Shown: positions 6,206 through 40,656 of the stretch, one piece after another | How positions within the stretch are numbered: position 1 is the first letter of the stretch | Layout: each line of letters begins with the position of its first letter | Source: Desulfobacteraceae bacterium | Lineage (GTDB): Bacteria; Desulfobacterota; Desulfobacteria; Desulfobacterales; JAABTS01 | Length of the DNA: 40,662 nt | NCBI GenBank assembly: GCA_011389735.1 | Contig: JAABTS010000033.1 | Span: 1-40,662, forward strand | Direction of reading: 5' to 3' | Made by a program: the position numbers and the translations under genes | Notes under the pieces: generated by a model | Seen by the model: only the letters and a program-made list of their open reading frames with translations | Told to the model about the DNA's origin: nothing | Databases searched by the model: none

Positions 6206-6333
6206 AAATTCGATTTAGCCGTGCGGCCGACCCGGAATGGTATAAGTTTTCAGAACCCCCAACAACAGGATAAATTCGCCGCATGTGTAAAAAACTTCGT
6301 CTGCAAACATATAATTTATTTTTAATATTGGAA

Positions 6334-6362: not shown

Positions 6363-6436
6363 TTTCTCTATCCTTGCAAAAGTGCAAATGAATTCACCGG
6401 TTTTCCGGCGACAAAAAAAATTCGGGAGCGTACAAA

Positions 6437-7948: not shown

Positions 7949-8009
7949 TTGGGCCGGCTTTTGAAAATCCGGAAAAGATATGTAGTCTCGAAGAGTTGAA
8001 AAAGCCCTT

Positions 8010-19613: not shown

Positions 19614-19683
19614 AGACGATGTACTCCTCATCCTATGCAGTTAATAAATTGCCACATATGGAAACGGCTCCGTCCGTCCATCG

Positions 19684-20484: not shown

Positions 20485-20560
20485 CAGAACCTCTTCACAT
20501 GTTTCGAAATTAAGGGATCAGACCATATTCATGGATCATGTTACAATATTTACCAAGACA

Positions 20561-22765
20561 TCAAGCTCTCGTCAGTTTTGCTCGGATTCCCCAGGCGCCG
20601 TCGAATCCGGATTGAGGATCCGGTATGGGACCAATCAATTCGTTGACGTTAACGCCCTTTTCCGCGAGATATTCGTCGGTTCCGCCATGTCCCAGCCCCC
20701 GCGGCATTGCAATGACTCCCGGCTTGATTCCATCATAATGGTTCACCCTTACTTTCACCTGGCCTTTCGGCGTCGATAAAGTCGCATAGCCGCCGTTTTT
20801 GACACCAATTTTTCCGGCGGTTTCCGGGTTGACTTCAACAAAGGAATCTCGTTTCTTAAGAACAGTGTCTTCAACGGTTTTAATCACGAACGGAGGGTCT
20901 CCGATATAGCCTCCGGATAAACGAAGCGTATCATAGGGAACAAGAATCAATGGATAACTTCCATCATCGCCTTCGGGAACGATCTCCCGAACCGAATCGA
21001 GAAAACCGGCCGACGCGAAATTAAATTTACCGGAATCCTCTTTAAAGGCCTCTTCCCATGACCGGGGGGAAAAATCGGAATCCGAAGTAAAGCCTTCTTC
21101 TTCGAGTGTGCCCCATTCCTCTCCGAACGTTTCCTGCAGACAGGTTTCATAATCTCCCCAGGGAAAAGACTCCGCAACGCTTCCACCTATCTTGCCTGCA
21201 AGTTCGATGACGGCGTCGCCCGTGTTGCGAGTGTTATACAAGGGGCTTACGACCGGCCGGGTTATCCCCCTAACGGGCTTGCCCATTCCCCTGGGAGCCG
21301 GAACGTCTTCATATCTTTCAAGATAAGTGTGGTTTGGAAGCACAAGACTGGCGTATTCAACCGTTTCATCCATGTATGATGAAAAGCTCACGATGAAGGG
21401 TATTTTCTCAAAAGCAGCTTTTACGGCGTTACTGTCGGGGAAGGAATAGCAAGGATTGGCCCCGGCGATAAACAGCGCTTTCAATGGGTATTCGCCCGAC
21501 ACGGCCAGCTCGGAAAACCGGCTGACCAGGCTTCCGGGATCTTTTTCCGATCCGGGGTCTAGGCCGTCAATACGAGGCGATTTGAGTCCTTTTTTGGCGA
21601 TTTCATCCATTTGTATGGCGGGCCAGTCGTTATCGTCGGTCTGTTCCACCGCCCACACACCGCCGGGTCTGTTGACGGCGCCCACAATGGCGTTAAGCGC
21701 ATGCACCGCCATGGCCTCAAACAAAGTCCCCGGTTGGGAGCCGTTACCTCTTCCGTACAGCGCGACAGGTCTGGATGCGCCGGCGAAGTCTCTCGCCAGA
21801 CTTTCGATTACGGACGAAGGAACGCCCGTTATGGATGCGGCCTTATCCGGTGAATAAGCATCCAGAAGCATGTTCCGGAATTCTTCGAACCCCCGGGAGT
21901 AATTTTCTACAAACGCCTTATCGTAAAGAGACTCCTTCACGATAACAGCGGCGATTCCCATGGCCAGAGCCGCTTCCGCGCCCGGATTGACAGGGATCCA
22001 TTTATCCGCCTGGGCGGCTGTATTGGACAGCCTCGCTTCCATTTGAACGAGCTTCGCTTTCTTTTCTTTCCAAACGCTGTGCGCCCGGATCATTCTTACC
22101 GGCGACCACCATCCTTCGATCACCCCGGAACCAAAGCTCAATATAAAATTGGACTCCTCGGCGTCGATTCCCGCCGTCATACGCCTGCCGTGCATGCGGC
22201 TAACCGCAAGCTCGTATGCGTCATACGAGGACGGTATGCTCATATAGTTGGGAGATCCCAGGGAGAGGAGAAATCTTTCCAGGAGCTGCGACGTCGTACC
22301 TTTGCGGAGCCCGGAAATACAACCGATGGCTTGAGCCTCCCCGTTCTTCCGCAAGGCGTCTATCTGATCCGACACAACAGCTATAGCCTCCTTCCAGGAA
22401 ATCTTGACCCACTTTCCGTTTTCCTTCTTCATGGGCGACTTTATGCGCCTGGGCCCGTATAACAACTGAAGCCCGGAAAGCCCTAAAGGGCAAATTCCGC
22501 CGTCGTTCACCGGATGACCGTCCATGCCTTCGATCTTGATCGCTCTATCTTCCACTTTTCGAACGGTTATTCCACAACCTCCCGGACAGATGGCGCAGGC
22601 TGAATTGACGTAGGTTGTTTCGCCGTCTTGTGGAACCGGAGTCCATGGCCACATCTGCGTCCAAATAGAAAGGTCATCCGTCAATTTCCAGGGCAAGGGC
22701 GTTAACGCCGTACCGGCTGCTGCGCCGAGTCCAAGTGACAAGAAACTTCTTCTGTCAATTTTCAT
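20561..22765 (-). CDS. qrcB: Qrc molybdopterin-oxidoreductase-like subunit QrcB
   Basis: A 734-residue member of the DMSO reductase family. The N-terminus has a Tat signal (DRRSFLSLGLGAAAGTAL). An iron-sulfur cluster motif follows at Cys57, Cys60, Cys64 and Cys92 (CAICPGGC, then GGICPLG). The fourth Cys is followed by Pro-Leu-Gly rather than the lysine- or arginine-containing box of catalytic family members. The C-terminal region (YVTL-like cofactor cap, starting near VNPETAGKIGVKNGG) is complete. In the characterised Desulfovibrio complex, QrcB carries no molybdenum and acts structurally or in electron transfer. The assignment rests on the fold signatures and the qrcA-B-C-D order. Confidence 0.94.
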   Translation of the reverse strand: MKIDRRSFLSLGLGAAAGTALTPLPWKLTDDLSIWTQMWPWTPVPQDGETTYVNSACAICPGGCGITVRKVEDRAIKIEGMDGHPVNDGGICPLGLSGLQLLYGPRRIKSPMKKENGKWVKISWKEAIAVVSDQIDALRKNGEAQAIGCISGLRKGTTSQLLERFLLSLGSPNYMSIPSSYDAYELAVSRMHGRRMTAGIDAEESNFILSFGSGVIEGWWSPVRMIRAHSVWKEKKAKLVQMEARLSNTAAQADKWIPVNPGAEAALAMGIAAVIVKESLYDKAFVENYSRGFEEFRNMLLDAYSPDKAASITGVPSSVIESLARDFAGASRPVALYGRGNGSQPGTLFEAMAVHALNAIVGAVNRPGGVWAVEQTDDNDWPAIQMDEIAKKGLKSPRIDGLDPGSEKDPGSLVSRFSELAVSGEYPLKALFIAGANPCYSFPDSNAVKAAFEKIPFIVSFSSYMDETVEYASLVLPNHTYLERYEDVPAPRGMGKPVRGITRPVVSPLYNTRNTGDAVIELAGKIGGSVAESFPWGDYETCLQETFGEEWGTLEEEGFTSDSDFSPRSWEEAFKEDSGKFNFASAGFLDSVREIVPEGDDGSYPLILVPYDTLRLSGGYIGDPPFVIKTVEDTVLKKRDSFVEVNPETAGKIGVKNGGYATLSTPKGQVKVRVNHYDGIKPGVIAMPRGLGHGGTDEYLAEKGVNVNELIGPIPDPQSGFDGAWGIRAKLTRA

Positions 22766-22820
22766 ATATAGACCCCTTATTCTAATTATTTAGTCATTTC
22801 CCATCAGCAACGATAGTTCA

Positions 22821-23525
22821 TTACTTATGGCAAACGAAACAGGCATCCTTTTTGGTTTGCACACTGGATTCCATGCCGGCTTCCTTATGGCAGTCCGCGC
22901 AATCATCCATTTTCATACTTTCCCAAATATGCTTTTTATTCAAGCCGGATATGCTTTTACCCCAGATATCTCTGCTGTATCCCGTAATGACGTTTTCCTC
23001 ATACGGTTTCAGAGAATCGGATTCTCCGATAGGTCCGTGGCAAGTTTCACAATCCATTTCCGCTTTAACCACATGAGCCGCGTGAGAGAAAAAAACGCAA
23101 TCGGGCTGCTTTGAATATATGCGCCAGGGAACTTCTCGATCATTCCAAACGTATTCATATACGAAGGTTTCTTCATCGGCGGTTCCTCCCTGAACTTCTT
23201 CATGGCAATCCCTGCATAACCACAGTTTGGGAACCCCCGCGAACGTCCCGTCATCACGGAAATAATGACAGCTTTCACATCCGTCGACCAGGTCGTTATG
23301 GACTTCATGGCTGAAATCGAACGGCTGCTCTTTCTCCGAGTACAATAACGCCGGAAAGACAATCCAACCGATAATTAAAGCGATAGCCAGACCAATAACA
23401 AAGGATACGATGATACTGCCCTGAGCCAACCCCGGTTCGATTTTTTCCGATTCTTTTTCAGGCGCCCCGGGTTCCTTAACAGCGGCGTCCACAGAATCCT
23501 TAGTGTTCTCCTCTATTGTGCTCAT
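22821..23525 (-). CDS. qrcA: Qrc multihaem cytochrome c subunit QrcA
   Basis: A 234-residue membrane-anchored cytochrome. A polar N-terminal tail of about 35 residues precedes one membrane segment (residues 38-60, IIVSFVIGLAIALIIGWIVF). The periplasmic domain has five CXXCH haem motifs at 83-87, 104-108, 159-163, 209-213 and 229-233, plus free histidines suited as distal ligands (FSHEVH, FFSHAAH, KKHIW). Characterised QrcA is reported as hexahaem; only five canonical motifs are visible here, with an isolated Cys143 (DCVFFSH) as the only leftover cysteine. It would accept electrons from type I cytochrome c3. It is the first gene of the operon, with promoter at 23599-23627. Confidence 0.93.
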   Translation of the reverse strand: MSTIEENTKDSVDAAVKEPGAPEKESEKIEPGLAQGSIIVSFVIGLAIALIIGWIVFPALLYSEKEQPFDFSHEVHNDLVDGCESCHYFRDDGTFAGVPKLWLCRDCHEEVQGGTADEETFVYEYVWNDREVPWRIYSKQPDCVFFSHAAHVVKAEMDCETCHGPIGESDSLKPYEENVITGYSRDIWGKSISGLNKKHIWESMKMDDCADCHKEAGMESSVQTKKDACFVCHK

Positions 23526-23634: not shown

Positions 23635-24480
23635 TCATTTTGCGTAGCTATGTAATCCCGGAAGGTAGTTGACGCCGAAAAAAGTGAACAGCACCGCCAT
23701 GAATCCGATGATCGATATATAAGCGATTCTCGAACCCGTCCAGCCTCTCATCAACCTTGCGTGCAATAGAAACGAATAAATGAGCCACGTAATAAGCGAC
23801 CAGGTTTCCTTGGGATCCCATGACCAGTAACTTCCCCACGCTGAATTCGCCCATACGGATCCCGTAATAATACCGATGGATAAAAATAAAAAACCGAACA
23901 TCACCATCCGATGCGTCAAGTCATCCAAAATATCGCTTTGCGGCAATATGCCGGAAAGTTTGCCGGCAATGGCGGGCAGATAATTTTTGACCATATACAT
24001 GAGGCTTACCCCAAACGCAATAGCGAATCCCGCATATCCCAAGAAGCAGGTCACCACATGAGCGATCAGCCAATTGCTCTTCAGCGCGGGAACCAGGGGT
24101 TTAATCCCCTGGTTGGGGGATAAGGCGGCATAGGCCATTATTAAAAACACCATCGGCGTTACGAAAGCTCCGATAATCCGGCTCTGGTATTTGAATTCGA
24201 CAAACAAATAAATCACGGTAACGACCAGGCCGAAAAATATCAGAGATTCATACATATTCGATAACGGCGCATGTCCTAAGCCGTAATTGTAAGATTCGAC
24301 CCACCTCAGTAAGATACCTGCGCTATTGCCGATAGCCGCGGCCACTGTAACCCATGTCGCGATCCGGCCTGCGCGGCCGTTCTTGAAAATCCAAGAAACG
24401 ATATATAACACGGCGGATAAAAAATACACAAACGTGATAACGGACAATACCATTGATGAATAAATCGGTTCATTTCCCAT
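23635..24480 (-). CDS. ccsB: Cytochrome c biogenesis protein CcsB/CcsA type (System II haem handling)
   Basis: A 281-residue integral membrane protein with about eight hydrophobic helices. It contains the tryptophan-rich WWD signature WGSYWSWDPKETWSLITW near residues 218-235, which binds haem at the outer membrane face, and conserved histidines in LGHAPLSNMYE and LIAHVV. With ResB it forms the System II synthase that exports haem and ligates it to CXXCH motifs. This fits the neighbourhood: qrcA lies directly downstream, and resB is two genes upstream on the same strand. No system I (Ccm) genes are seen. Confidence 0.94.
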   Translation of the reverse strand: MGNEPIYSSMVLSVITFVYFLSAVLYIVSWIFKNGRAGRIATWVTVAAAIGNSAGILLRWVESYNYGLGHAPLSNMYESLIFFGLVVTVIYLFVEFKYQSRIIGAFVTPMVFLIMAYAALSPNQGIKPLVPALKSNWLIAHVVTCFLGYAGFAIAFGVSLMYMVKNYLPAIAGKLSGILPQSDILDDLTHRMVMFGFLFLSIGIITGSVWANSAWGSYWSWDPKETWSLITWLIYSFLLHARLMRGWTGSRIAYISIIGFMAVLFTFFGVNYLPGLHSYAK

Positions 24481-24560
24481 TTTGAAGCACCTGTATTTTA
24501 TATTCTGTCATATACGATCATCCGATTCGCTTCCGTATCGCCTTTCAGAAAACGACTATA

Positions 24561-24653
24561 GTCTTCCGGGAATCAAATTTAATTGCGTCGCCGGCCTGGA
24601 ACATTTTTTGTGGATTGTTCCGGGCCGCCGCATTGTTCGGTTTAATTCCTGAA
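24561..24653. repeat. Family B inverted-repeat element
   Basis: Left arm TCTTCCGGGAATCAAATTTAA leads to GCCGGCCTGGAACA; right arm TGTTCCGGGCCGCCGCATTG leads to GGTTTAATTCCTGAA. The two arms pair imperfectly. The stretch ACTATAGTCTTCCGG before it recurs at the copy at 27541. It occupies the gap between ccsB and the AMIN-domain gene; the rest of 24481-24819 has no gene. Confidence 0.65.
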
Positions 24654-24819
24654 GCGCAATAGGAGCGAACACCCTCTATAAATTAATCGTAATGTTTTAG
24701 CCGGTTGATATTGATTTTCAGTAATAACGCCTGTACGCCGTGTTTTCCTCAGACACGAAGAAGCTCTTTAATATTTACAGCGAAGAATTTCAATAGGAAA
24801 ATTTTATCTCCGAACAATT

Positions 24820-25737
24820 TCATCCATTTTTTGTCATAATCAGTTCCAATCCTTTGCCGGATTCTTTGACATCTAGGGTGTAAGGGCCGGGATCGTTCAA
24901 GTCAAGGACAACGCTGAGATGGTCGTCATGTTCGCCGATCCGGATTTTTTCTACAAATTTTCCGGATATCGGAATATCGGGATTTCCGGGATTATCCCAT
25001 TTTCCTGCAAGATTTATGACCAGCCGGGGAGGGCTTTTCATAAAAAAATATTTATAATCAGTTACCTGCTGCTCGGAAGCGATCATCATTCTGAAATCGG
25101 TCTCGCCTTCTTTATTCCATATATTGGTCACCGTTTTAAACGGCGTGATGGTCGCCTCGCCGGACTCTTCGCCGGGACTCTTCTTTTTAGTCCCCTGAGC
25201 TTTACGCTTGACGACAGTCCCGGAACCATCGTCCGGTTCGGGCGGACGTTCCGGATCGGCTGCGGTTTTATCGGACAAAGCGTCATCCAAAGGCTCGATC
25301 GGTTTAATATCCCGGCGTTTCGGTTCCGTATCCGGAGAAGCGCCCTTATCCTCGGGGGCGGAGGCGGTTTCGCCGGTTTCCTCGTTCGGTTTTTCGACAA
25401 TAATCGGTTGTTTTTCCCCGGAACCGATCAGCCTTTTCGGCTTCTCTTCAATCCGGCGCTCCATTTCGGGCTGCATGTCGAATCTTGCGACTTTCTCTTT
25501 TTCGTCCCTTGTAAAGATCAGAACAATAATTACAACAACAATAAGGACACCCAGAACCGGGGCCAAAATTTTCAACCAGGGGCCTCCCACGGGATTTTCG
25601 AATTTCCAGAAACGCGTCCAACATTCCTTGCATCGATAGGGCACGCGAGGAACGACATACTTAAAAAGTTTCTCGATTCCTCGCCGATGTGACACGGTGA
25701 TATCTTTACTTCCGCATCTCGGGCATTCGTGGTTCAT
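24820..25737 (-). CDS. Zinc-ribbon membrane protein with C-terminal AMIN domain
   Basis: From ATG 25737, which has an excellent AAGGAGA site, the protein has 305 residues (an upstream TTG at 25758 is less likely). A cytoplasmic zinc ribbon occupies residues 5-39 (CPRC and CKEC). One membrane helix follows at about 56-76 (WLKILAPVLGVLIVVVIIVL). A long Pro/Glu/Lys-rich linker spans about 80-210. The last 90 residues form an AMIN domain, with SPPRLVINLAGKW, VEKIRIGEHDD and LSVVLDLNDPGPYTLDV. AMIN domains bind the cell wall or localise envelope enzymes and secretins. The gene sits between resB and ccsB, an unexplained place for such a protein; a role in cytochrome maturation is only a contextual guess. 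Confidence 0.82.
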   Translation of the reverse strand: MNHECPRCGSKDITVSHRRGIEKLFKYVVPRVPYRCKECWTRFWKFENPVGGPWLKILAPVLGVLIVVVIIVLIFTRDEKEKVARFDMQPEMERRIEEKPKRLIGSGEKQPIIVEKPNEETGETASAPEDKGASPDTEPKRRDIKPIEPLDDALSDKTAADPERPPEPDDGSGTVVKRKAQGTKKKSPGEESGEATITPFKTVTNIWNKEGETDFRMMIASEQQVTDYKYFFMKSPPRLVINLAGKWDNPGNPDIPISGKFVEKIRIGEHDDHLSVVLDLNDPGPYTLDVKESGKGLELIMTKNG

Positions 25738-25876
25738 TTCTCTCCTTTCGATTTTCAATTGTATTCAGAATCGTGTTCCGGAATAACGGGTTTTTATATC
25801 ATTGTTTTCATGAGATTACAACGAATTCCTGTTTTAACCGTCATCCCCGGAGAGCACCGATCCATGTTCGGTTCTT

Positions 25877-27265
25877 CTATTGATCCAGTCTTTCCAATTT
25901 TTCCGCCAGATTTTTGATATTCAACACCATTCCTGTTTCGTGTTTGTTGGAAAGGCCGAATACAATGATCCGGCGATGAGCGCCCTCGTCCAGGATATCC
26001 AGCCGAATACGCTGATGAAATACAAAAAAAGTGATGATAAAACCGGCGATCATGATTATAAAACCGGCGTACACGACTGGAACCCCGGGATCTTTGGTGA
26101 TCTGCAGCCCGGTCATGTATCGCTGTTCAAAATCTTCCACGGAAACTATAAAATCGCCCCCGCGCATGTGGTCAAACCTTGGATGCTGAAGCGGGATTAC
26201 GATTTCGACGGCCTCGCCCTGATCCGGTACGAAATCAGCGATAAAACAAGGGCCGATATCACGAACTCCGCCAAACAAAAATCCGGAACGGTAATCCTTC
26301 AGTATAAAAGTTCCCGTATTCTCCGGAGCCTCGACGGCGTCTCCAATTTTCGCCTTTTCAACATATTCGAACCCTGAATCCTTCATTTTGAATTTAAGAC
26401 TGATTTCCCTGTCCTTGAAATATTCAGCGTCAGGCGTATCGGGCCTGTAGCTGGATTGGTAGAAAGACAGTCCTTTGTATCTCAGTGGATCGTTCACGAT
26501 GATGGACCTGGTTAAAACCTCCTTTCCGTCTTCAACAACGGTCAGGGAGGATCTGAACTCTTCCGGCTGCCCTGTTTCATAAAAGCCGACATGAAAATCG
26601 TTGCAGCGAATGTCGAATCCAAGGGAAATTTCCTCTCCGGTTTTCATTATTTTAGCCACCCCCCTGGATTCGCCTTCCGGAATCATCATAAACGCTCGAA
26701 ATCCCATAACCCCGCCCAACAGCCCGCCAAAAAGCAATAATAACACACTCAAGTGGATAATGTAAACCCCGAGCCGGGACCATCTCCCTTTTTCGGCATA
26801 AATCCGATACGAATCGCCTTCTTTTAAACACTTCACAAATTTGAAACGCCGCCGAATATACGGTTCATAACGCTCCATAAGAGTATTTCGAGGGGATTCA
26901 ACCTCAAACGACGCCTGAGCCCGGCTTTTTTGGAACAAAGAATCCGGAAACAAAGGAGTCTTGGGAAATATAATTTTGTAATTCTTTTTGAACCTGTCGA
27001 TGGAACAGATAATGATATTGATCGTCAATAAAATCAACAGGAAGGTAAACCATCTGGAATGATAAAGGTCAAAAAATCCAAGCCTGTAAAAAAGGGTGAA
27101 GAGTCTTTCCCCATATGTGTGGAAATAATCATCCAGCGGCTTGTTTTGGGGAATGAACGTCCCAATGACCGATGATGAGGCGATAGACAACAATAGAATC
27201 ACGGAAAGCTTTACGGATGCGAAAAACTTCCAAAGGTCGTTAAAAATTAGTTTTATGCTGTTCAT
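25877..27265 (-). CDS. resB: Cytochrome c biogenesis protein ResB (Ccs1)
   Basis: The 462-residue protein matches ResB. A first membrane helix (FFASVKLSVILLLSIASSSVIGTFIPQ) is followed by a second (WFTFLLILLTINIIICSIDRF), a third (IYIIHLSVLLLLFGGLLGGVMGF), a periplasmic domain of about 220 residues (with LSFYQSSYRPD, typical of the family) and a last helix (VVYAGFIIMIAGFIITFFVFHQR). ResB works with CcsA/CcsB in System II: it receives apocytochrome and haem at the outer membrane face. It is the first gene of the resB, AMIN gene, ccsB run; the ribosome site is GGGAAC. Confidence 0.94.
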   Translation of the reverse strand: MNSIKLIFNDLWKFFASVKLSVILLLSIASSSVIGTFIPQNKPLDDYFHTYGERLFTLFYRLGFFDLYHSRWFTFLLILLTINIIICSIDRFKKNYKIIFPKTPLFPDSLFQKSRAQASFEVESPRNTLMERYEPYIRRRFKFVKCLKEGDSYRIYAEKGRWSRLGVYIIHLSVLLLLFGGLLGGVMGFRAFMMIPEGESRGVAKIMKTGEEISLGFDIRCNDFHVGFYETGQPEEFRSSLTVVEDGKEVLTRSIIVNDPLRYKGLSFYQSSYRPDTPDAEYFKDREISLKFKMKDSGFEYVEKAKIGDAVEAPENTGTFILKDYRSGFLFGGVRDIGPCFIADFVPDQGEAVEIVIPLQHPRFDHMRGGDFIVSVEDFEQRYMTGLQITKDPGVPVVYAGFIIMIAGFIITFFVFHQRIRLDILDEGAHRRIIVFGLSNKHETGMVLNIKNLAEKLERLDQ

Positions 27266-31640: not shown

Positions 31641-32798
31641 ATGAAACTGAAATCATTTATCATTCTTCTGGTTGTGTGCGCGGTGCTGGGAGTCGCCGCA
31701 TACTTCACGCTGATGAAAAAAGAACCCGAAGCGACTGGACCGAAAATGGGAGATTTGTTGTTCGAAGATTTTCCCGTCAACGATGTGGCTCGTATATCCA
31801 TCACCAACGACGAAGGAACTGTCACGCTTCAAAAGGACAAGGTCTGGGGAGTCGTCGAACGGTATAATTATCCTGCGGATTTTGACAAGATCCGGACTTT
31901 TGTCAAAAAATTCCTTGATCTTAGACTAGGCAATGTTTTCAAGGGATCCAAAGACTCGATATCCCGGTTGAAACTCGCGGCCCCGGACCAGGAAGGCGTC
32001 CCGCAAGAATCGAAAGGCGCTCGCATAACCCTCGAAGATAAACAAAATAAACCGGTTATTGACATTATCATCGGCGCCTCCCGTAAATCCGGAACAGGCG
32101 GAGGCCATTATCTTCGAATGGCCGATGAGGAAAAAGTGTATCTCGTTGCCGAAAATTTCAGATACATAGACGACACGCCCAAAGATTGGATTGAAAAAGA
32201 TCTGCTGAGCGCCGACGCCGCCGATATCAAATCCATGGCCTGCTATCCTCCGGAAACAGAGGAACCGCTGTATTCCTTGAAAAGATCTGAAAAAAACAAG
32301 GACGCGGAATTTGTCGCCCCTCCGGAAGACAAAAAGATCAAGGATTCAAAAATTTCCAGCGTTATGCGGGCAATCGCGTCGATCCGGACCGAAGACATCG
32401 CCGATCCTGCAAAAGGGCTGGACGAAATCGGCATGGAATCCCCACACCGCTTCGAATACAGAACTTTTGACGGAACCGTGTATAAAATCCGAACGGGAAA
32501 ATCCGGCGAGGGAGACTCTGCCGAACATTATCTGAAGCTTGAAGTTTCGTTTATGGCCCCGGAAGAAACCGAAGAATCGGAAACCGAGGGCGAAACCATG
32601 GAAACGGAAGCGGAGGGAGCGGAATCAGCTCCGGCGGCGGCTGAAACAGACAGTAAAAGCCCCGAAGAAATCGCCAAGGAAGCCGAGACTCTGAACGAAA
32701 AAGTCGAACCGTGGACCTATATTATTTCACAGTGGAAGTATGAAGCCTTTGAAACGGATTTAAACGAATTTTATGAAGAAGAAACGAAGGCCGATTAA
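31641..32798 (+). CDS. DUF4340 domain protein
   Basis: A 385-residue protein with an N-terminal signal or anchor helix (SFIILLVVCAVLGVAAYFTL). Two related segments follow, each in the DUF4340 style: VARISITNDEGTVTLQKDKVWGVVE, then KIRTFVKKFLDLRLGNVF, and later IASIRTEDIADPAKGLDEIG with RFEYRTFDGTVYKIRTG. An acidic, low-complexity stretch (about 310-350; Glu, Thr, Ala, Ser) precedes the C-terminus. DUF4340 proteins regularly follow GldG-like genes and are thought to be extracytoplasmic partners of that ABC system; the molecular function is unknown. The ribosome site is GAGGGGATT, and the hairpin at 32813-32841 ends the operon. Confidence 0.85.
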   Translation: MKLKSFIILLVVCAVLGVAAYFTLMKKEPEATGPKMGDLLFEDFPVNDVARISITNDEGTVTLQKDKVWGVVERYNYPADFDKIRTFVKKFLDLRLGNVFKGSKDSISRLKLAAPDQEGVPQESKGARITLEDKQNKPVIDIIIGASRKSGTGGGHYLRMADEEKVYLVAENFRYIDDTPKDWIEKDLLSADAADIKSMACYPPETEEPLYSLKRSEKNKDAEFVAPPEDKKIKDSKISSVMRAIASIRTEDIADPAKGLDEIGMESPHRFEYRTFDGTVYKIRTGKSGEGDSAEHYLKLEVSFMAPEETEESETEGETMETEAEGAESAPAAAETDSKSPEEIAKEAETLNEKVEPWTYIISQWKYEAFETDLNEFYEEETKAD

Positions 32799-32812
32799 TT
32801 TCCTGATTGATT

Positions 32813-32841
32813 CGATGCTCCCGGTTTTTCCGGGAGCATCG
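32813..32841. terminator. Bidirectional terminator hairpin between convergent genes
   Basis: A perfect 12-bp stem CGATGCTCCCGG/CCGGGAGCATCG with a TTTTT loop lies between the DUF4340 gene stop and the pyrF stop. No long T-run follows on either side, only GATTTT on the plus strand, but the stem is very stable. Confidence 0.75.
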
Positions 32842-32848
32842 GAAGATT

Positions 32849-33571
32849 TTAAAAGCTTACCGCGGAGTCAATTTCCGCCGCAATCCTGGCGGCCGCTTCG
32901 GCCGGATCATCCGCTGTTCGTATGGGCCTGCCGATAACAAGATAATCGGCGCCGTCTTTCACAGCGGCTGAAGGCGTGACCACCCGTTTCTGATCGTCCT
33001 CGGACAGGTTCCATAATGGACGTATTCCGGGAGTTACGGCAAGAAAATCCGAACCGAATTCCGTTTTTATCATCCGCGTTTCCCGGCCGGAACATACCAC
33101 TCCGGCGCATCCCGCAGAATTAGCGTCACGAGCCCTGGCCAGCACCAGCTTCATCAGATCGGTATATTCCTCTCTAAAGCCGGCGGCCCGAACATCTCCG
33201 CCCGATACGCTGGTCAGGACGGTGACTCCCAAGACTCCGGCCCGCCCTTCTCCAGCTTCCACCGCAGCTTCGAGCATCTTCCGGTTTTCGCCGCAATGAA
33301 CTGTGACCAGCGATACGCCAAGATCTTTAACGCTTTTCATGGCGTGATACACCGTGTTCGGAATGTCATGAAGCTTTAAATCGAGAAAGATCCCGGTGTT
33401 AGACTCATCCCTGACCCGGCGGACAATATCGGGGCCGCAACGGAAAAACAGCTCAAGCCCGATTTTGAACATCCCTACGGAACCGGATAACAATTTTACA
33501 TAACGCATCGCTTCCTCGCCGGACGAAACGTCCAGAGGAAAAACAATATGTTCTTTTCCACTTTTTCTCAT
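32849..33571 (-). CDS. pyrF: Orotidine 5'-phosphate decarboxylase PyrF
   Basis: The 240-residue protein decarboxylates OMP to UMP, the last step of de novo pyrimidine synthesis. The catalytic DxKxxD box is Asp64-Lys66-Asp69 in FLDLKLHDIPNTV. Phosphate-binding segments GIRPLW and YLVIGRPIRTADDP are present near the C-terminus, and length fits the group I bacterial enzyme. The start has a weak ribosome site and lies 20 bp after the ABM gene stop, so it is probably translated from the same mRNA as the chemoreceptor and hydrogenase genes. That placement is unusual for a pyrimidine gene and may reflect simple hitch-hiking. Confidence 0.97.
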   Translation of the reverse strand: MRKSGKEHIVFPLDVSSGEEAMRYVKLLSGSVGMFKIGLELFFRCGPDIVRRVRDESNTGIFLDLKLHDIPNTVYHAMKSVKDLGVSLVTVHCGENRKMLEAAVEAGEGRAGVLGVTVLTSVSGGDVRAAGFREEYTDLMKLVLARARDANSAGCAGVVCSGRETRMIKTEFGSDFLAVTPGIRPLWNLSEDDQKRVVTPSAAVKDGADYLVIGRPIRTADDPAEAAARIAAEIDSAVSF

Positions 33572-33591
33572 TACGGGCCTAGACGATCCGG

Positions 33592-33897
33592 TCAGACGAT
33601 ACGCATATAGGTGCTGAAATCAGGATTCGCCGCCATAAGATCCTTCAATTTTCCGGCTGTTTCATTGAAATGGCCGGAAAGGATATGAGCGTTCATGGAC
33701 TCCTCGCTTTCCCATTCATGAATAAAGGTGAAAATAGCGGGATTGGTCTGGTTTTGATACATATTATAACTAAGACAACCGGGTTCTTTACGGGTTGGTT
33801 CGACCATCCCGGAAAGTATCGATTTAACCGTGTCGATTTTATCCGACAGCGCTTCAATGTGGGAAATCATCGTGATTGCACCCTCTTTTTGCTCCAT
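33592..33897 (-). CDS. ABM-domain protein (YgiN-type quinol monooxygenase family)
   Basis: A 101-residue dimeric alpha-beta barrel-type protein of the antibiotic biosynthesis monooxygenase family. Marks are KIDTVKSILSGMVEPTRKEPGCLSY, with the family's E-P-G-C turn; FTFIHEWESEESMNAHILSGHF, with the strand-His pattern; and the final strand. Members act on quinols or aromatic polyketides or are of unknown function. No cofactor motif is expected. The start has the ribosome site GGAGGAG. It follows the chemoreceptor by 18 bp and precedes pyrF by 20 bp. A quinone-related role would be consistent with the redox neighbourhood but is not shown. Confidence 0.85.
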   Translation of the reverse strand: MEQKEGAITMISHIEALSDKIDTVKSILSGMVEPTRKEPGCLSYNMYQNQTNPAIFTFIHEWESEESMNAHILSGHFNETAGKLKDLMAANPDFSTYMRIV

Positions 33898-33915
33898 ATT
33901 CTTCTCCTCCTTAAT

Positions 33916-35604
33916 CTAAACTTTGAATTGATCAACGATTTTTTTCAGTTTTCCCGAAAGGCGCAGCAATTCCTCCGAACTCTTTTTCACGGTCAAGCTG
34001 TTTCTGGACGCCTCTTCGATATTGTGATTGACCTCTCCGATCTCCCTGGCTGTGTTTGCTGATACGGATGAACTTTCCGACACGTTACGGTTCACGTCCG
34101 ATATACCTTCCGACACCTGAGCGATGCTTCGGGCTATTTCCCGCATGGTCACGGATTGTTCTTCAACCGCCGTGGCGATCACGGAAACTATGTCATTCAC
34201 ATTGTCGATCACCTCGGACACCTGGCCTATTTCGGATATGGCGGATTCAGTCGTAGTTTGAATCCCTTCGATTTTTTCACGGATTTCATGGGTCGCGCCC
34301 GCTGTATTTCTCGCCAGATCCTTTATTTCATTCGCTACAACGGCGAATCCTTTACCGGCGTCCCCGGCGCGGGCCGCTTCGATGGTGGCGTTTAACGCCA
34401 GAAGCTTCGTTTGATCGGAAATTTCAATAATGGTTTCGGTCACTTTTCCGATATCATGAGCGGCCTGGCCCAATTCTTCGATCCTGGCCGATGCGCTCCC
34501 GGCTTTGGCCACGGCTTCATTGGAAATGATACGGGCGTTTTCCGAATTCTTTGCGATTTCAATAATGGTGCCCGACATTTGTTCGGTCGATGTCGCCACC
34601 ATATCGACATTGGTGGACGCCTCCTCCATCGACGCGGCGACTGAAGCCATGTTGGCGCTCATTTGTTCAGTGGCGGCAGCGACATTATTCGATTTGACAA
34701 GGCTGTCTTCGGCGCTTTGGGACATTTTGCCGGACAAACCGGACAGGTTTTCGGAAGCCTGGGCCAGAATATCCGCATTTTTAGCAATATGGCTGATCAT
34801 TCCCTGAAGGTTTTCAATAAAAATATTGAACCATTTGGCCATTCGGCCTGTTTCGTCATTGGCGTCGATCAGGAGCCGCACCGTCAAATCCCCCTCCCCT
34901 TTCGCGATGTCTTCAAACATGACGGAAATTTTTTCCAGTGGATGGCCGACCATGTTCTTGACCAAAAAATAGGAAACCAGGATCAACACCAGAACAACCG
35001 ATGCGACCGATACAACGGAAACCCAGAGGGACGCTTTTCGAAGCCCGGCCATGGTGTTGGCGACCTCACGTTTTGCATCCTGAAGGGCTTTCAAGGAAAA
35101 CCGGAAATACGACACCCCGCCGACCTCGCCGAGTTTCCAGTCCATGTGGCATCGAATACAATCGTTATTGACAATGTGCGGCTGATAGATTTCCATAAAC
35201 TTGTCATCAAAAAAGTTCAGCCGTTCCTTGTCCTGATAAACCGGTTTCGCGAGATCCGGGGGCAACCTTTTATTAATGAAGGACGCATCAGAGGAATGTG
35301 TGACGACTCCCTTATTATCATACAAGGAGAACTCGGTAAGTCCTTTGACTCGCCGTTGAGCATCCAGAAGCCTGGAAAATTTTTCCATCTCGCCTCGTTC
35401 AAGCGATCCGGCGACCGCCTGCTCAAGAGATATGAAAATATTATGCGCATTCTTTTCTTCCCGATCCTTGAGTAGATCCATATTGATGTCGGTCAGTTTG
35501 GAAATCTCACGGGTGACGATCCTGTGTTGCACTATTTGAGCCGCCGTCACGGTCAAAATCAGCCCGGATAGAAGCCACAAAGTGAGTTTGACATGTATAC
35601 GCAT
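33916..35604 (-). CDS. Methyl-accepting chemotaxis protein with periplasmic haem c motif
   Basis: A 562-residue transmembrane chemoreceptor. Helix one (about 7-25) and helix two (about 193-216) bracket a periplasmic domain of about 165 residues with a c-type haem motif, Cys149-x-x-Cys152-His153 (DCIRCHMDW), followed by [16 protein letters not shown] domain (about 215-270) joins the cytoplasmic signalling rod, whose tip reads [31 protein letters not shown] and keeps the conserved Glu and Arg. No C-terminal CheR pentapeptide is seen. A haem-bearing receptor of this kind, DcrA in Desulfovibrio, senses redox or oxygen. The start is 38 bp after the hydrogenase small subunit stop, suggesting co-expression with the hydrogenase. 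Confidence 0.93.
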
Positions 35605-35642
35605 CGCTTTTCAATCCTGTTTTGATGACTAAAAGAAAAATC

Positions 35643-36566
35643 TCATTTTAATCCGTCGAGTATTTCGCCTTTGCGATAAAAAGGGAAACCCGCCTTTAAC
35701 GCAAAGGTGTCGGAAGTACACCCGATACACGGCGCACCTGCGTTGATGCATGAATTAATCCCGGAATTCCATTGCCGTATGGTGCAATCCCCAAAAGTGT
35801 TGGGCCCGACACATCCCAGCTTGAACAAACATCCCTCTCCGGAAAACATGTCGGCGAAACTCTCTCGTTCGTAATCCGCGAATCGCGGACATTGATCGTG
35901 AACATACCTGGCGTAAAACATCAGAGGCCGGTTTTTGCCGTCCAAAGCCGGCTTTCCGAATTTCAACAAATGCGCCAATGTCCCCGTGATCCATTCCGGA
36001 TGGGCTGGGCAGCCGGGTAAATTGATGGGATTGGCTTTAACGCCTTTTCGCTTGAAAAATTCCATTACCCCGACCGCTCCGGTCTGATTGTTTTCAGCCG
36101 CAGGAATACCGCCGAACGCCGCACAAGTCCCGACCGCAATAATCGCTTTGGCGTTTTTGGCGGCCCGGATAATTTGGTCGGCCACCGGTTCCCCGCCCAT
36201 CATACAGGCCTCCGGCATATCCGCGGGAACGGCGCCTTCCACAACAAGATAATACCCTCCCCGGTCTATGCTCGCATTGATCAAATCAAGGCTCACTTCC
36301 CCCGTAGATGCGGTTATGGCGGTATTAAAGAGCATGGAAATATACCGGGTCATCAATTCCACCGGATTGGGATACGAATTGTTCAACAAGGACACCGTGC
36401 ATCCCGAACAACTTTGTCCCTGAAGCCAAAGAACCTTCGCGTTTCCTGAATACATCGTTTCCAAAGCCCCGGCCAAATCCGGAACGGCTGAAGCGCCCAA
36501 TCCCATCATAGCGGCCAGTTTTCCGCTTATAACCAAAAATTCCCTGCGTGTGAATTCATTCTTCAT
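35643..36566 (-). CDS. Periplasmic [NiFe] hydrogenase small subunit
   Basis: A 307-residue protein with a Tat signal (FTRREFLVISGKLAAMMG) and a signal-peptidase site near PDLAGALE. The mature part has proximal-cluster ligands (QGQSCSGCTVSLL, GTCAAFGG, LPGCPAHPEW) and ligands for the distal (VHDQCPRF, GEGCLFKLGC) and medial (GDC, PCIGC) clusters. There is no C-terminal membrane helix, so the enzyme should be soluble in the periplasm, probably coupled to cytochrome c3 and then Qrc. It follows the large subunit by 31 bp, whereas the usual order in this family is small then large. The ribosome site is weak. Confidence 0.95.
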   Translation of the reverse strand: MKNEFTRREFLVISGKLAAMMGLGASAVPDLAGALETMYSGNAKVLWLQGQSCSGCTVSLLNNSYPNPVELMTRYISMLFNTAITASTGEVSLDLINASIDRGGYYLVVEGAVPADMPEACMMGGEPVADQIIRAAKNAKAIIAVGTCAAFGGIPAAENNQTGAVGVMEFFKRKGVKANPINLPGCPAHPEWITGTLAHLLKFGKPALDGKNRPLMFYARYVHDQCPRFADYERESFADMFSGEGCLFKLGCVGPNTFGDCTIRQWNSGINSCINAGAPCIGCTSDTFALKAGFPFYRKGEILDGLK

Positions 36567-36597
36567 CGTTCAAAGACCCCATTTTAATGACCTCATT

Positions 36598-38112
36598 TTA
36601 ATGAACGGCGCATGCAATACATGGATCAAAGGACCGGACAATTCTGACCGCCTCCAGAGGATTCTCGCTGTCTGCAATCGCGGTTCCGGCAAGAGCGTGT
36701 TCCACGGGTCCCGGAAGGCCGTTGTCGTCTCTCGGTGAACAATTCCATGTAGTAGGTATAACGCATTGATATGACTTTATTTTGCGATTCTTCAGCTCAA
36801 TCCAGTGCCCCAGCGCTCCCCGCGGCGCTTCAGTCAATCCAAAGCCCCGCCCTGAATCCGGAATTATAAAATCCGTGAAGGTTGGATTTCCTGGAATCAA
36901 AAGATCGACCCACTCTCTGCAACGATCCGCGATGATTTTGCACTGAATCGCCCGGGCGATATGCCGCCCCATCGTCGATTGCATATCCTGATGTGTCCTG
37001 CCGATCTTTTTCAGGACACCGTCGAGCAGCGCCCGTATTTGCGATTTTTCGTCACGCAGATACCCGGCCATGACGGTCGCCAGAGGTCCCGCTTCCAGAG
37101 GCCGGCCTCCGTAACGCGGGGCCTTGAGCCATGAATACGCCTTGTTTTTTTGAGGGTCGGGGATGGTGCGGCTTTCAAAGGGATGCGCCGCCGATGACGA
37201 TGAATAGTGGGAGTATCGGACATCCTCCCGGATTCCGAACAGATCCACATCGTTAACCTCCCCTTTGGTGACGATTCCGGACGGCAACAGTGTTTTGTCG
37301 CCGGCGTCCGTTTCCGGATAAGCGCCGAAAGCAAGTAAATCGCCGTATCCCTTGCCGATGAGCATATAATCCGGAAACGCCGTCGCCAGCTCGATCACAT
37401 CCGGAATATAAACCGTGTCGATAAACGTTCGAATTTGATTCAGCATGTTCGCAAATTGAAGAATCTTATGCGCGGTCGGCGGTTGCGTCACGCCTCCCGG
37501 AACAATCGACGGCGAATGAGGCAGTTTCCCGGCGAAAACAGCGCCCATCCGATGAGATAGAGATCTGATTTTGAAAGCATCCATATAATGCTTGACGAAC
37601 ATGATATTCAATTCAGGATCGGTTATATAATTCCCTGAGTATTTGGGTAAAAACGGAGCAAACGGATAGAGCCCGCCGGAACCGGCCCCGCTTTCAATCC
37701 ATTTTTTCAAACCCGCCAGATCCGGATCGTTCCCCTTATATTCAGCCACCGGCTGCACATCGATATAATCAAGCGCGGCCAGATGATAAAAATGAAGGAT
37801 GTGGGACTGTATGGTGTTGGCGCCCTGGATCAAGTTTCTCAAAAGCCGTCCGTTTTCCGGGGGAACAATTCCATATACGGCCTCTTGCGCGGCGCACGAA
37901 ACAATCCCGTGGGAAATGGGGCACACTCCGCAGATTCGCTGAGTAATCTGCTGGGCGTCCATCGGATCCCGCCCCTGGAGGATCGCTTCGAATCCCCTGT
38001 ACATTTCTCCTGCAATATAGGCGTTTTGAATTACGCCGCCGTCGATATCCAGACGGACAGCCAGATGCCCTTCAATCCGGGTGATCGGATCGATCTTTAC
38101 ACTCACCGCCAT
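36598..38112 (-). CDS. [NiFe] hydrogenase large subunit lacking a C-terminal extension
   Basis: A 504-residue catalytic subunit. The N-terminal metal ligands are Cys61 and Cys64 (QRICGVCPISHG) and the C-terminal ones Cys498 and Cys501 (DPCIACAVH). Other family marks include PHSPSIVPGGVT and EAPRGALGHWIELK. The protein stops immediately after the His of DPCxxCxxH. Ordinary large subunits carry a further peptide of about 15 residues that a HyaD/HupD-type protease removes after nickel insertion; here nothing needs removal, as in H2-sensing HoxC/HupV proteins. Bases after the stop do not encode a lost extension. The ribosome site AAGGAGG is good. A 56-residue ORF lies directly upstream, and the small subunit follows. 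Confidence 0.96.
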   Translation of the reverse strand: MAVSVKIDPITRIEGHLAVRLDIDGGVIQNAYIAGEMYRGFEAILQGRDPMDAQQITQRICGVCPISHGIVSCAAQEAVYGIVPPENGRLLRNLIQGANTIQSHILHFYHLAALDYIDVQPVAEYKGNDPDLAGLKKWIESGAGSGGLYPFAPFLPKYSGNYITDPELNIMFVKHYMDAFKIRSLSHRMGAVFAGKLPHSPSIVPGGVTQPPTAHKILQFANMLNQIRTFIDTVYIPDVIELATAFPDYMLIGKGYGDLLAFGAYPETDAGDKTLLPSGIVTKGEVNDVDLFGIREDVRYSHYSSSSAAHPFESRTIPDPQKNKAYSWLKAPRYGGRPLEAGPLATVMAGYLRDEKSQIRALLDGVLKKIGRTHQDMQSTMGRHIARAIQCKIIADRCREWVDLLIPGNPTFTDFIIPDSGRGFGLTEAPRGALGHWIELKNRKIKSYQCVIPTTWNCSPRDDNGLPGPVEHALAGTAIADSENPLEAVRIVRSFDPCIACAVH

Positions 38113-38134
38113 GAAACCTCCTTACAGGATGGGG

Positions 38135-38305
38135 CTATTCCCCCTCCCTCCGCTTATAAACACCTTTTACCATATTCACGGCGCCGAAATCGGAAAGGCG
38201 TCCGCCGTATTGTGTCATGATTGCAGGAACCCATTTTTCACCAACCCGCTCCAACCTGATCCATTTCCGCCCATCGTCAAAATGATATTGAATCAAAAAT
38301 TTCAT
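38135..38305 (-). CDS. Small ORF (56 aa) upstream of the hydrogenase genes
   Basis: An open frame of 56 residues that begins 28 nt from the proposed -10 of the hydrogenase promoter and ends 22 bp before the large subunit. The peptide starts MKFLIQYHFDDGRKWIRLER and ends with a basic stretch, VKGVYKRREGE; it has no cysteine and no membrane segment. No strong ribosome site precedes ATG 38305, which is the main reason for caution. I recognise no family. From its position it could be a hydrogenase accessory or a regulatory leader peptide. Confidence 0.55.
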   Translation of the reverse strand: MKFLIQYHFDDGRKWIRLERVGEKWVPAIMTQYGGRLSDFGAVNMVKGVYKRREGE

Positions 38306-38332
38306 AAGATTATTTTACATATAACGTTCTTT

Positions 38333-38361
38333 AGTTTATTGTAAAAAGAAAACAGTGTCAA
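38333..38361 (-). promoter_or_regulatory. Promoter of the hydrogenase-chemoreceptor operon
   Basis: On the minus strand TTGACA (38356-38361) and TAAACT (38333-38338) are separated by 17 bp. This is a good sigma-70 match placed just ahead of the 56-residue ORF. No further promoter or terminator is evident between here and pyrF. I see nothing distinctive in 38362-38489. Confidence 0.6.
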
Positions 38362-38489
38362 TGCCGAATTCGGTAACTATCCCATATTCGTAGACTTTTT
38401 AGTAACTTCCGTCACTGGACGAGGATACTGTTTTCACATTCCCGGGCTTTTGGAAAAAATAATCTTGCAATGGCGAACCGGATTCAATA

Positions 38490-38707
38490 GATAGTGGCTG
38501 AACGAAAAACGCCTCACGCTCCCAGAGGATTTGCAATCCCCTTTGGCCAAGAGAGGAACACGCGGGTTACAAACCCGCTCAGAGCCGTGGATCGAAAAAC
38601 TCATCTCGCTCACAGGGGATTTGCAATCCCCGTTGGCCACGAGATGAACACGCGGGTTACAAGCCCGCTCAGAGCTGGGGTTTGCGGCTTTTCGTTCAAT
38701 CACTATC
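38490..38707. repeat. MITE-like element, family C, with tandem palindromic units
   Basis: A 218-bp element with imperfect terminal inverted repeats: GATAGTGGCTGAACGAAAA at the left, and at the right the complement of GATAGTGATTGAACGAAAA. Inside are two direct repeats with a 90-bp period. Each contains GGATTTGCAATCCCC and CGCGGGTTACAA[AG]CCCGC, palindromes that would form hairpins. Related units occur inside the element at 4706-4977. Frames open across it give arginine- and proline-rich peptides of a kind often misannotated as hypothetical proteins. Confidence 0.8.
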
Positions 38708-38780
38708 TTAAAATTGGGATGCGGGCAAAGCCTGCTTTGGTTTGAATCAAATTAGCGTTTAAATGCAATGGAGGTTTCAA

Positions 38781-38966
38781 ATGAACAAAGAAAGAATCAA
38801 TGAGTTGTTCAGGAGTCTGGAAAGAATGGTCAATTCAGGTCAGGAACACGCCAGAGGTTATATGGATCGTGAGCCGAGCCAGAAAATGCAGAATAACTAT
38901 TGGAGGTATGTATTGCAGGATCTCAGGGAATTGAAATCCCTTGTTTTGGAAGACGAACAAGTTTAA
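38781..38966 (+). CDS. Small conserved-looking hypothetical protein (61 aa)
   Basis: From ATG 38781, preceded by ATGGAGGTTTCAA with a clear GGAGG site, the frame encodes a 61-residue, highly charged and probably all-helical protein. It has helices around KERINELFRSLERMVNS and YWRYVLQDLRELKSLVLED and no cysteine or membrane segment. The earlier ATG at 38764 lacks a ribosome site. It stands alone between a repeat element and a terminator hairpin. I do not recognise the family. The codon use, translation start and helical pattern suggest a real gene. Confidence 0.65.
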   Translation: MNKERINELFRSLERMVNSGQEHARGYMDREPSQKMQNNYWRYVLQDLRELKSLVLEDEQV

Positions 38967-39018
38967 TATTTTTGCAGCCGTCGATGTTTTTTTACATCGG
39001 GTAGTGAAAACCGGTTTT

Positions 39019-39046
39019 GTAAGGGCGGAAAAAGATTCGCCCTTAC
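39019..39046. terminator. Bidirectional terminator hairpin
   Basis: A perfect 9-bp stem GTAAGGGCG/CGCCCTTAC with a 10-nt loop lies between the 61-residue ORF and the convergent chemoreceptor. It is flanked by AAAACCGGTTTT and by AAAACCG, which can extend the pairing. A smaller hairpin, CGATGT-TTTTTT-ACATCG, lies near 38982-38999. Confidence 0.6.
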
Positions 39047-39072
39047 TACTTTCACAGTAAAACCGATAGCGT

Positions 39073-40656
39073 TTACCTGATTAGTTTTTCGATCTGGGAC
39101 GCCAGATGAGTCAGGTTTTCCGCCTGATATTTTATCCTGGCTGCGCTCCTGGATGTTATATTGATCGATTCGGTAACGCCGACAATGCTTTGTGTGACCC
39201 GTTCGGTTTGTTCGGACGCCATGGCGGCGTCTTCAGCGATATCTTCCGCCGATTTCGCCAGTTCGTCAAGGCTTCCTGAAACATCCACGCCGAATTGCAC
39301 CGCTTCCCGAATTCGTTCCGACGTCACAGACGAACTTCTGGCCGCCTCGAAAAGATTATCGGACACCGATTCAGCGGCGGTGACCGTTCCCACAATGCTT
39401 TTGGATATCTCATTCGTTGTGGCGGTCTGCTCTTCAACGGCGCTGGCGATGTTTTCCATGATCAGATTAATTTCCGAAATGACTTTTACGATAACCTCGA
39501 TAGCCTTGACCGCGGCTTTAGTGTTGGTTTGCATACTGAGTATTTTTTTACGGATTCCCTCCGTAGCGCCGGTGGTTTGACGCGCCAGATCCTTTACTTC
39601 ATTGGCGACCACACGGAATCCTTTTCCGGAGTCTCCGGCGCCGACCGCTTCAATCGTCGCATTCAACGCCAGAATATGCGTTTGAGAGGCGATCCCCTTG
39701 ATCAGTTCAATCACATCGCCGATTTTTTCCGCATCGGCGCCCAGAGTGTTGATGATTTCGGAAGCCGTTTCGGCTTTTTCCGACGCATCGCTGGTGACGC
39801 TTGCCCCGCGGGTGGAATTTTTGGACACTTCGTTCAACGACGAGTACATCTGTTCGATTGCGGTTGCAATCACGTTTACCGCTTTGCACATCTGTTCCGC
39901 GTTATCGGAAACAGTGCTCAAGTGGTCGGAAACAGTACTGGTGGCTGTTTCTATTTCTTTTAAATTTCCGGACAATTCGTTCGACGCCGAAGCCACTGAA
40001 TTGACGCTGCCGCTGGCTTTGCCCGCCGAATCCGCCATATTCTTGATGTTCACAAGCGTTTTTTTGCTTTCTTCAGACGCATTCATGGAAAGCGAATTCA
40101 TTTCGCTCGATTTGTCTGAAAGTTCTTCCGCCGTGGTGTCCAGAACGGTAGACGCCTGCAATATTGCTTCTCCTGTTTCTCCGATGCTGTCGAACATATC
40201 TTCAAGTCTCTCGACAGTATCGTTTTGCAGCTTCAACGATTCCTTCTGCCCCTCGAAAGCCTGCCGCATTCCGTTATTAAAAAACCACCCCGAAATGAAC
40301 ACCGCGAGAAGGGGCCCAAAATAGTTGGCGATCTGAGCCTTGACGACTTCCGTTTCCGATAAGCTAATAGTGGGCAACGGATAATCGATCAGTTTTAAAT
40401 AGTAGAATATGAGCAGAGCAATCAGTAAAAACGAAGTCCAGAACATGGAAAACCAGTTTCCAAAGTACATGGACGACAAGAGCGGAACCACAAGCAGCCA
40501 TGTGATAGCCGTGGAATCGAATCCGCCGGTCAGATGAATCAAATATATAAAATGTAAGTTCAGGGCGCCCATCATGCAGTACCCGGGAATCGTAAGTTTC
40601 CCGCTTTTCCGGAAAAGAAGCGTCATCAAGAATACGACAATCGCGACTCCCGCCAT
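39073..40656 (-). CDS. Methyl-accepting chemotaxis protein, 5' end at the window edge
   Basis: At least 527 residues; the frame remains open to the right edge, so the true start may lie outside. The N-terminal 135 residues are hydrophobic, with about four to five membrane helices ([78 protein letters not shown]) and little periplasmic sequence. This layout suggests sensing within or at the membrane. The rest is a cytoplasmic signalling rod with the tip [33 protein letters not shown]. The usual A-A-R-A-G is V-G-A-G here, losing the highly conserved tip arginine. No HAMP domain or CheR pentapeptide is obvious. It is separated from the hydrogenase operon by a repeat and a small plus-strand gene. 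Confidence 0.88.

Follow-up and report, generated by a model that had tools for sequence, protein, structure and literature searches.

We analyzed a 40,662-nucleotide stretch of a Desulfobacteraceae bacterium (contig JAABTS010000033.1 of assembly GCA_011389735.1; hereafter the window), in which the genes for a [NiFe] hydrogenase large subunit (LSU; 504 aa, 36598..38112), its small subunit (SSU; 307 aa, 35643..36566) and a chemoreceptor of the methyl-accepting chemotaxis protein type (MCP; 562 aa, 33916..35604) follow one another on the minus strand. Pfam assigned the LSU to NiFeSe_Hases (PF00374), the SSU to Oxidored_q6 and NiFe_hyd_SSU_C, and the MCP to HAMP and MCPsignal. Standing side by side in many distantly related bacteria, these genes suggest an H2-sensing system that steers cells; their products probably form a periplasmic H2-sensing chemosensory unit, which would most plausibly work by reducing the haem of the receptor. 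The sequence evidence comprises gene order and its conservation, motifs, a nearly exclusive link of the MCP to one clade of LSUs without a C-terminal extension, joint divergence of hydrogenase and sensor, and covariation of a methionine with the CxxCH motif.

The LSU contains both NiFe-binding CxxC pairs, RICGVCPISH and DPCIACAVH (motifs RxCxxCxxxH and DPCxxCxxH), and scores 630.9 bits against the family profile NF033181, whose cut-off is 600. It ends in DPCIACAVH (His504), followed by a TAA stop codon, and has no C-terminal extension of the kind usual in [NiFe] precursors. The solved structures nearest to both subunits are periplasmic [NiFeSe] hydrogenases; selenocysteine in the LSU was nevertheless rejected, the motif codon in the window being Cys and the stop TAA. 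The SSU begins with a signal of the twin-arginine translocation (Tat) type, TRREFL, and carries the Fe–S ligand motifs CCCCHCCCCCCC. All twelve Fe–S ligand positions checked, assigned after hydrogenase structures, are filled, with four cysteines at the medial cluster.

The receptor consists of a transmembrane segment starting at approximately residue 7, a periplasmic sensor (approximately 26–190), a second transmembrane segment (approximately 190–217), HAMP (220–267) and MCPsignal (360–514). Its CIRCH motif (residues 149–153) sits between the two hydrophobic stretches, ahead of HAMP and MCPsignal, and the region spanning residues 24–192 (35029..35535, minus strand) was taken for alignment and structure prediction. 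All 42 sensor-bearing proteins scanned (42/42) matched MCPsignal, and a histidine-kinase output for the short receptors was rejected on that basis. Receptors of this type also occur in other settings. A paralogue in the window's own genome (contig C31, locus L122, 6342-8381, plus strand) has the same haem sensor, 44% identical, with CVRCH; no hydrogenase was found on its 16-kb contig, and it might read the same hydrogenase. At locus L121 (genome G257, 4471-9402), the same sensor type, with CGVCH rather than CIRCH, has CheW, a receiver and, according to BLAST, a CheA-like protein as neighbours, and no hydrogenase was found beside the sensor. A Verrucomicrobia-labelled contig (L159, 5068-13777) holds two hydrogenase pairs that diverge from each other and, in tandem, two haem receptors.

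The adjacency of hydrogenase and receptor, from which the original prediction started, proved to be conserved in relatives across many lineages, and the prediction thereby withstood the refutation it had named for itself, adjacency in no relative at all. The LSU query matched in 35 of 58 genomes; besides its own genome, three gave LSUs of 55–56% identity, one being partial, and a fourth reached 51%. The first 219 residues of the receptor matched in 5 of the 58, including the own genome and the three with a 55–56% identical LSU, and these three relatives carry LSU, SSU and MCP in a row. A sensor match at 28% in G039 did not adjoin a hydrogenase. Across 389 genomes of the order, a sensor profile found 46 places in 42 genomes and an LSU profile (E up to 1e-170) 39 places in 38 genomes, with both matching in 36 genomes. 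Thirty-nine of the 46 sensor places adjoin LSU and/or SSU genes, five do not (C31 of the own genome, G257, G039, G211 and one of two in G127), and two lie at contig ends (G096 C443 and G388). We also scanned named bacterial and archaeal contigs with the LSU alignment and took the best 80 of 537 loci, so that the taxonomic spread is a lower bound. The order LSU–SSU–MCP appeared on contigs labelled as Desulfobacterota lineages, Verrucomicrobia, Magnetococcales, Riflebacteria, Planctomycetes and Krumholzibacteriota, the labels being record titles, mostly of metagenome bins; on a Hydrogenedentes-labelled contig, the sequence stops inside the sensor. The unit is also present on a contig labelled Desulfobacula (L218), a group with a cultured member.

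The union of the two sets, after dropping ten loci judged identical (also removed from the tree, the correlations and the sensor counts), comprised 115 LSU places: 90 extensionless, 24 extended (one of which, L217, has just 4 extra residues) and 1 unreadable. The extension is therefore missing from 90 of the 114 places with readable ends. An MCP adjoins 77 of the 90 extensionless LSUs, whereas 7 are cut by contig ends and 6 are without one; in G248 and G096, the MCP lies directly upstream of the LSU instead. None of the 19 extended LSUs with at least 2.5 kb of downstream sequence has an MCP, the other 5 being cut. The SSU gene is located within 300 bp downstream of the LSU gene in 83/90 extensionless places and upstream in 20/24 extended ones, and a Tat-like start was present in 87/87 SSUs outside the extension group. 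In an LSU tree built by a quick method from 109 rows plus 8 outgroup rows (117 in total; LSU rows shorter than 470 aa were left out, as in the correlations below), the MCP-linked rows fell in one 84-row clade, with a Shimodaira–Hasegawa-like approximate likelihood ratio test (SH-aLRT) support of 90, or 86 without the long-branched L195. This tree implies two changes of state for the extension and six for the MCP link. The outgroup does not form one side of a branch, an ordinary LSU of the window's genome falls among the outgroup rows, and the window's LSU is one of four long branches.

Hydrogenase and sensor diverge together. Over 68 loci with all three genes, the distance correlations were 0.95 for LSU–SSU, 0.90 for SSU–sensor and 0.86 for LSU–sensor, compared with 0.37 between the LSU and the signalling domain and 0.42 between the sensor and its own signalling domain. 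Within the window's group (35 loci), the SSU–sensor value was 0.91 versus 0.32 for sensor–signalling domain. Nearly all correlations lay above every one of 1000 permutations; relatedness alone would also beat permutations, so what counts is how two domains of the same protein differ. The receptors compared were those with a BLAST-matching sensor, a choice that favours similar ones, and differing receptor length classes may lower the signalling-domain correlation.

Several clusters include genes for the chemosensory output. Pfam confirmed CheA in those of G013, G236, L209 and L169 (Hpt, dimer, ATPase and CheW domains, with a receiver in 3/4). Of these, G013 also carries CheW and a receiver protein, L209 CheW and a second MCP, and G236 a second MCP; BLAST indicated Che genes in further clusters. 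The gene order in G013 is CheA, CheW, LSU, receiver, SSU, haem MCP, MCP. In the window, no CheA gene was found next to the unit; the genome as a whole gave 12 matches to H-kinase_dim and 2 to flagellin. That the three genes are merely neighbours, in an inherited order kept by chance or block transfer, appears very improbable, given that the order persists over LSU distances with a median of 0.49, that CheA and CheW genes share the cluster in several lineages, and that the extension-bearing relatives have no MCP (0/19). What such an explanation can draw on is the sampling: most named records are metagenome-assembled contigs, and they represent one enzyme clade, with rows that are not independent and bin labels that may be wrong.

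Haem-form sensors share motifs that are typically S-L-x-R-G-[EQ]-M and C-x-R-C-H. Among 89 sensor rows, 75 combine Met73 with CxxCH, 10 have neither, 3 have Lys with CxxCH and 1 is truncated before the motif; none of the three Lys-bearing receptors adjoins a hydrogenase. The 75 rows with both features suggest selection for the haem in the receptors that have it, and we propose Met73 as a candidate axial (sixth) haem ligand. Structure prediction gave a predicted local distance difference test (pLDDT) score of 91.9 and a predicted template modelling (pTM) score of 0.83 for the window's haem-form sensor and a pLDDT of 85.2 for a haemless one, and both predicted folds resemble extracytoplasmic Cache/PAS sensors. 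In a Foldseek search with the haem-form model, the haem-c chemoreceptor sensors GSU0935 and GSU0582 ranked 6 (E 1.1e-5) and 34 (E 1.7e-3), respectively, and WalK-type sensors outscored GSU0935; since ordinary Cache sensors make up most of the structural neighbours, the fold is hardly informative about the haem. Neither protein was found among the matches listed (best 50) in the VIA structure search. At the sequence level, a five-sequence sensor profile found no relative among solved structures, and a 73-row profile placed GSU0935 at E 0.065, below engineered helical proteins. A 17-row profile, from a set picked after this weaker result and including three receptors that do not adjoin a hydrogenase, returned GSU0935 as its top match (E 7.4e-4). 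The Pfam family PF21563 (Mcp40H-20_sensor) did not match the window's sensor at E 0.01 and matched 15 of 73 rows (best E 2.2e-5).

Several observations weigh against an H2-sensing unit that works through the receptor haem. At six extensionless places with sufficient flanking sequence, no MCP was counted: L164 has no MCP nearby and, by reading, a sulfate adenylyltransferase-like gene after the SSU; L202 has no MCP in 8 kb downstream; L216 lies outside the clade, with the order SSU–LSU and, by reading, methylene-tetrahydrofolate-type neighbours; and L159 contains a second LSU–SSU pair, divergent from the MCP-linked pair beside it. For L115 (G165), the SSU and MCP apparently lie on a different contig, and for L176 (Desulfothermus okinawensis) both are frame-broken in the draft. 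The Tat-like start is not specific, as it also occurs in 14/20 SSUs of the extension group. The contrast in divergence is small in the other group of 32 loci (SSU–sensor 0.76 versus sensor–signalling domain 0.66). The superposition of our model on GSU0935 is poor (TM-score 0.39, root mean square deviation 13.7 Å), possibly owing to a domain swap in the GSU0935 structure, and in the 17-row profile Met73 aligns 4–5 residues off the Met pair of GSU0935. Above all, ten receptors in the same gene position (L175, L177, L178, L181-L184, L186, L187 and L192) have neither CxxCH nor Met73, and the frame-broken D. okinawensis receptor also reads as haemless. In 3/10 of the partner SSUs, Asp or Glu occupies the second Cys of the first CxxC. 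Because the ten haemless rows all lie within one 13-row LSU subclade, the Met/CxxCH covariation may rest on a single event.

These haemless receptors imply that haem is not always needed, that its reduction cannot be the universal signal and that another route must exist; they likewise challenge, as a general signal, the earlier proposal that hydrogenase turnover sets the receptor haem state. One such route would be docking, in which the hydrogenase binds the periplasmic domain of the receptor and signals through a shape that depends on H2 or redox state, the haem tuning the response or being an ancestral extra. The haemless sensors, whose fold is predicted to be alike, fit this explanation, as does the joint divergence of SSU and sensor (r 0.90) that contact partners would display, and the hydrogenase HoxBC is thought to act in this way on the kinase HoxJ (PMC6978683). 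Set against it is the joint retention of CxxCH and Met73 in most sensor rows, and we regard docking as unlikely.

The receptor could also serve energy or redox taxis by responding to O2 or to the overall redox state of the periplasm, as has been suggested for DcrA, next to a metabolic hydrogenase co-expressed for the same conditions. Related haem-c MCPs without an adjoining hydrogenase do exist, the C31 paralogue among them. Of 16 genomes searched, 13 carry PF00374 matches besides the MCP-linked ones. The MCP-linked enzyme accounts for the sole PF00374 match of the other three, G244 (one contig), G164 and G071, where PF02906 was not matched either, which leaves room for an energy role; these counts do not decide between sensory and energy use. 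Such taxis is nonetheless improbable on three observations: the pairing is found almost solely in a single extensionless LSU clade and spans many phyla, the sensor in the window's group follows the hydrogenase and not its own output domain, and the 76 linked loci show no multihaem cytochrome gene within 4 kb. The original prediction had suggested cytochrome c3 as a possible relay, and a relay encoded in the cluster was rejected: no open reading frame (ORF) with at least three CxxCH motifs lies on the same strand within 4 kb at the 76 linked loci (0/76), as far as the contigs reach, and none is present among the ORFs of the window at 32.8–38.3 kb, which we examined separately. What survives of the H2- or redox-taxis module proposed there is the pairing of hydrogenase and haem receptor, which gains support from the conserved adjacency, sometimes with CheA, CheW or a receiver, the missing LSU extension, the covariation and the joint divergence, but without the nearby cytochrome relay.

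In the H2-sensing unit that we favour, the extensionless hydrogenase would be exported by Tat and would oxidise H2, the electrons passing along three Fe–S clusters. In haem-bearing receptors, they would most likely reduce a c-type haem attached to the MCP sensor, with His153 and the candidate ligand Met73, and the simplest route would lead from the distal cluster to this haem. The resulting change in haem ligation would alter the Cache/PAS-like domain and be relayed through HAMP and the signalling hairpin to CheA, which would set swimming, or another Che output, according to H2. Where the receptor lacks the haem, physical contact would have to carry the signal. From the sequences we infer, leaning slightly in its favour, a dedicated [NiFe]-hydrogenase chemosensory system: an exported extensionless clade, present in several phyla, would read H2 as a subunit of a chemoreceptor, the receptor's sensor evolving together with the hydrogenase and its output domain being open to exchange. 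Electrons from H2 would drive the haem form, and the haemless branch would have turned to signalling by contact.

Compared with known systems, the unit shares with HydDB [NiFe] group 1a and HysAB-type [NiFeSe] enzymes its closest solved sequences, the Tat-type SSU, the four-Cys medial cluster and the Cys motifs, but differs in its extensionless LSU, the leading position of the LSU gene and the MCP neighbour. Table 1 of HydDB 2016 (PMC5037454) heads group 1 [NiFe] as respiratory, gives H2 sensing for [NiFe] 2b and possible sensing for 2c and [FeFe] C1-C3, and enters a putative chemotactic role for [FeFe] C2 and for no [NiFe] class. A signalling partner is common to the unit, to group 2b (HoxBC/HupUV) and to the putative diguanylate-cyclase-linked group 2c, and 2b enzymes likewise have an extensionless LSU (PMC7294309). 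In contrast to 2b, the SSU of the unit is of the Tat type, while HoxBC is called cytoplasmic (PMC6978683), its LSU is nearest to group 1 structures, and its partner is a transmembrane chemoreceptor instead of a histidine kinase. The prominent extensionless [NiFe] enzymes given in the available text of PMC7294309 are 2b, 2d, 4c, 4e and 4g, group 1 not being named there. For [FeFe] C2, HydDB Table 1 likewise has a hydrogenase putatively acting through MCPs, but the enzyme is unrelated: the LSU of the unit belongs to PF00374, and PF02906, the [FeFe] domain, had no match in the window's genome and four relatives. In concept, the unit would work like C2 or 2b but belongs to neither.

On the receptor side, reduction, at −156 and −251 mV, switches the haem ligation of GSU0935 and GSU0582 (PMC8396549). 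Together with DcrA, they resemble the receptor described here in having a periplasmic CxxCH sensor, a PAS/Cache-like fold (predicted in our case), transmembrane segments, HAMP and an MCP output; unlike it, they are presented, in the text available, as sensors of redox state or O2 that have no hydrogenase for a partner, and their Met position appears to differ. Potentials of −156 and −251 mV are within reach of H2. Hydrogenotaxis of Methanococcus maripaludis is behaviour of the kind that the unit would explain, although in an archaeon and with no receptor named in the accessible part of the report (PMC4266047). More generally, H2 taxis has been reported or suspected with the receptor left unnamed in the corresponding sections (PMC4266047, PMC12004927), and putative sensory hydrogenases of Fibrobacteres, whose type is not given in the available text, were hypothesised to orient cells in H2 gradients (PMC4704652). 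Among the open-licence PMC papers searched, as far as their text was available, none described a [NiFe] hydrogenase–MCP pair.

The three genes lie in a longer row on the minus strand, together with a 56-aa ORF upstream of the LSU gene (38135..38305), a gene for an ABM-domain protein (33592..33897; Pfam ABM) and the housekeeping gene pyrF (32849..33571; Pfam OMPdecase). The ORF coordinates bear out that six genes share one strand with gaps of 22, 31, 38, 18 and 20 bp, and Pfam agrees with the gene families first assigned, the 56-aa ORF having no family match. As parts of a conserved unit, the 56-aa ORF, the ABM gene and pyrF were rejected, each being found at 0/236 fetched loci compared with 201/236 for the SSU as control, which leaves the ABM gene and pyrF as local neighbours. 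The signals read earlier as one good promoter and no internal terminator carry little information. The sigma-70-like match TTGACA-17-TAAACT (38333..38361, minus strand) agrees at 10/12 positions and is at chance level, with 6 such sites in 32600-39100 versus 6.5 in shuffles. The same region contains 9 terminator-like sites versus 8.6 in shuffles, again at chance level, including two weak minus-strand sites within the LSU and MCP genes. Neither the promoter match nor a supposed lack of terminators therefore speaks for a single transcript; the adjacency goes beyond chance because it is conserved in other genomes.

Upstream of the unit, the window holds a second MCP gene on the same strand (39073-40656, minus), whose product has a hydrophobic N-terminal part and is without CxxCH, and a tandem 90-bp repeat in two copies, 87% identical (38500-38679), flanked by inverted 20-bp arms (element 38489-38708). 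Approximately 10 kb from the unit lie a gene set for NrfD, ferredoxin, molybdopterin and class III cytochrome proteins (18372-23525), which we take to be Qrc-like, and genes for cytochrome c assembly and ResB-type proteins (23635-27265).

If the clade is sensory, hydrogenase gene counts in surveys of sediments, aquifers and H2 storage would overstate H2 respiration, and a sensory role would be set beside the respiratory heading that HydDB gives to group 1 [NiFe] hydrogenases in its Table 1. The unit would represent a receptor that relies on a separate enzyme, and on electron transfer from it, to read its ligand, and the natural haemless branch would offer a comparison for the role of the haem. 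Bacterial H2 taxis would then become testable with three genes.

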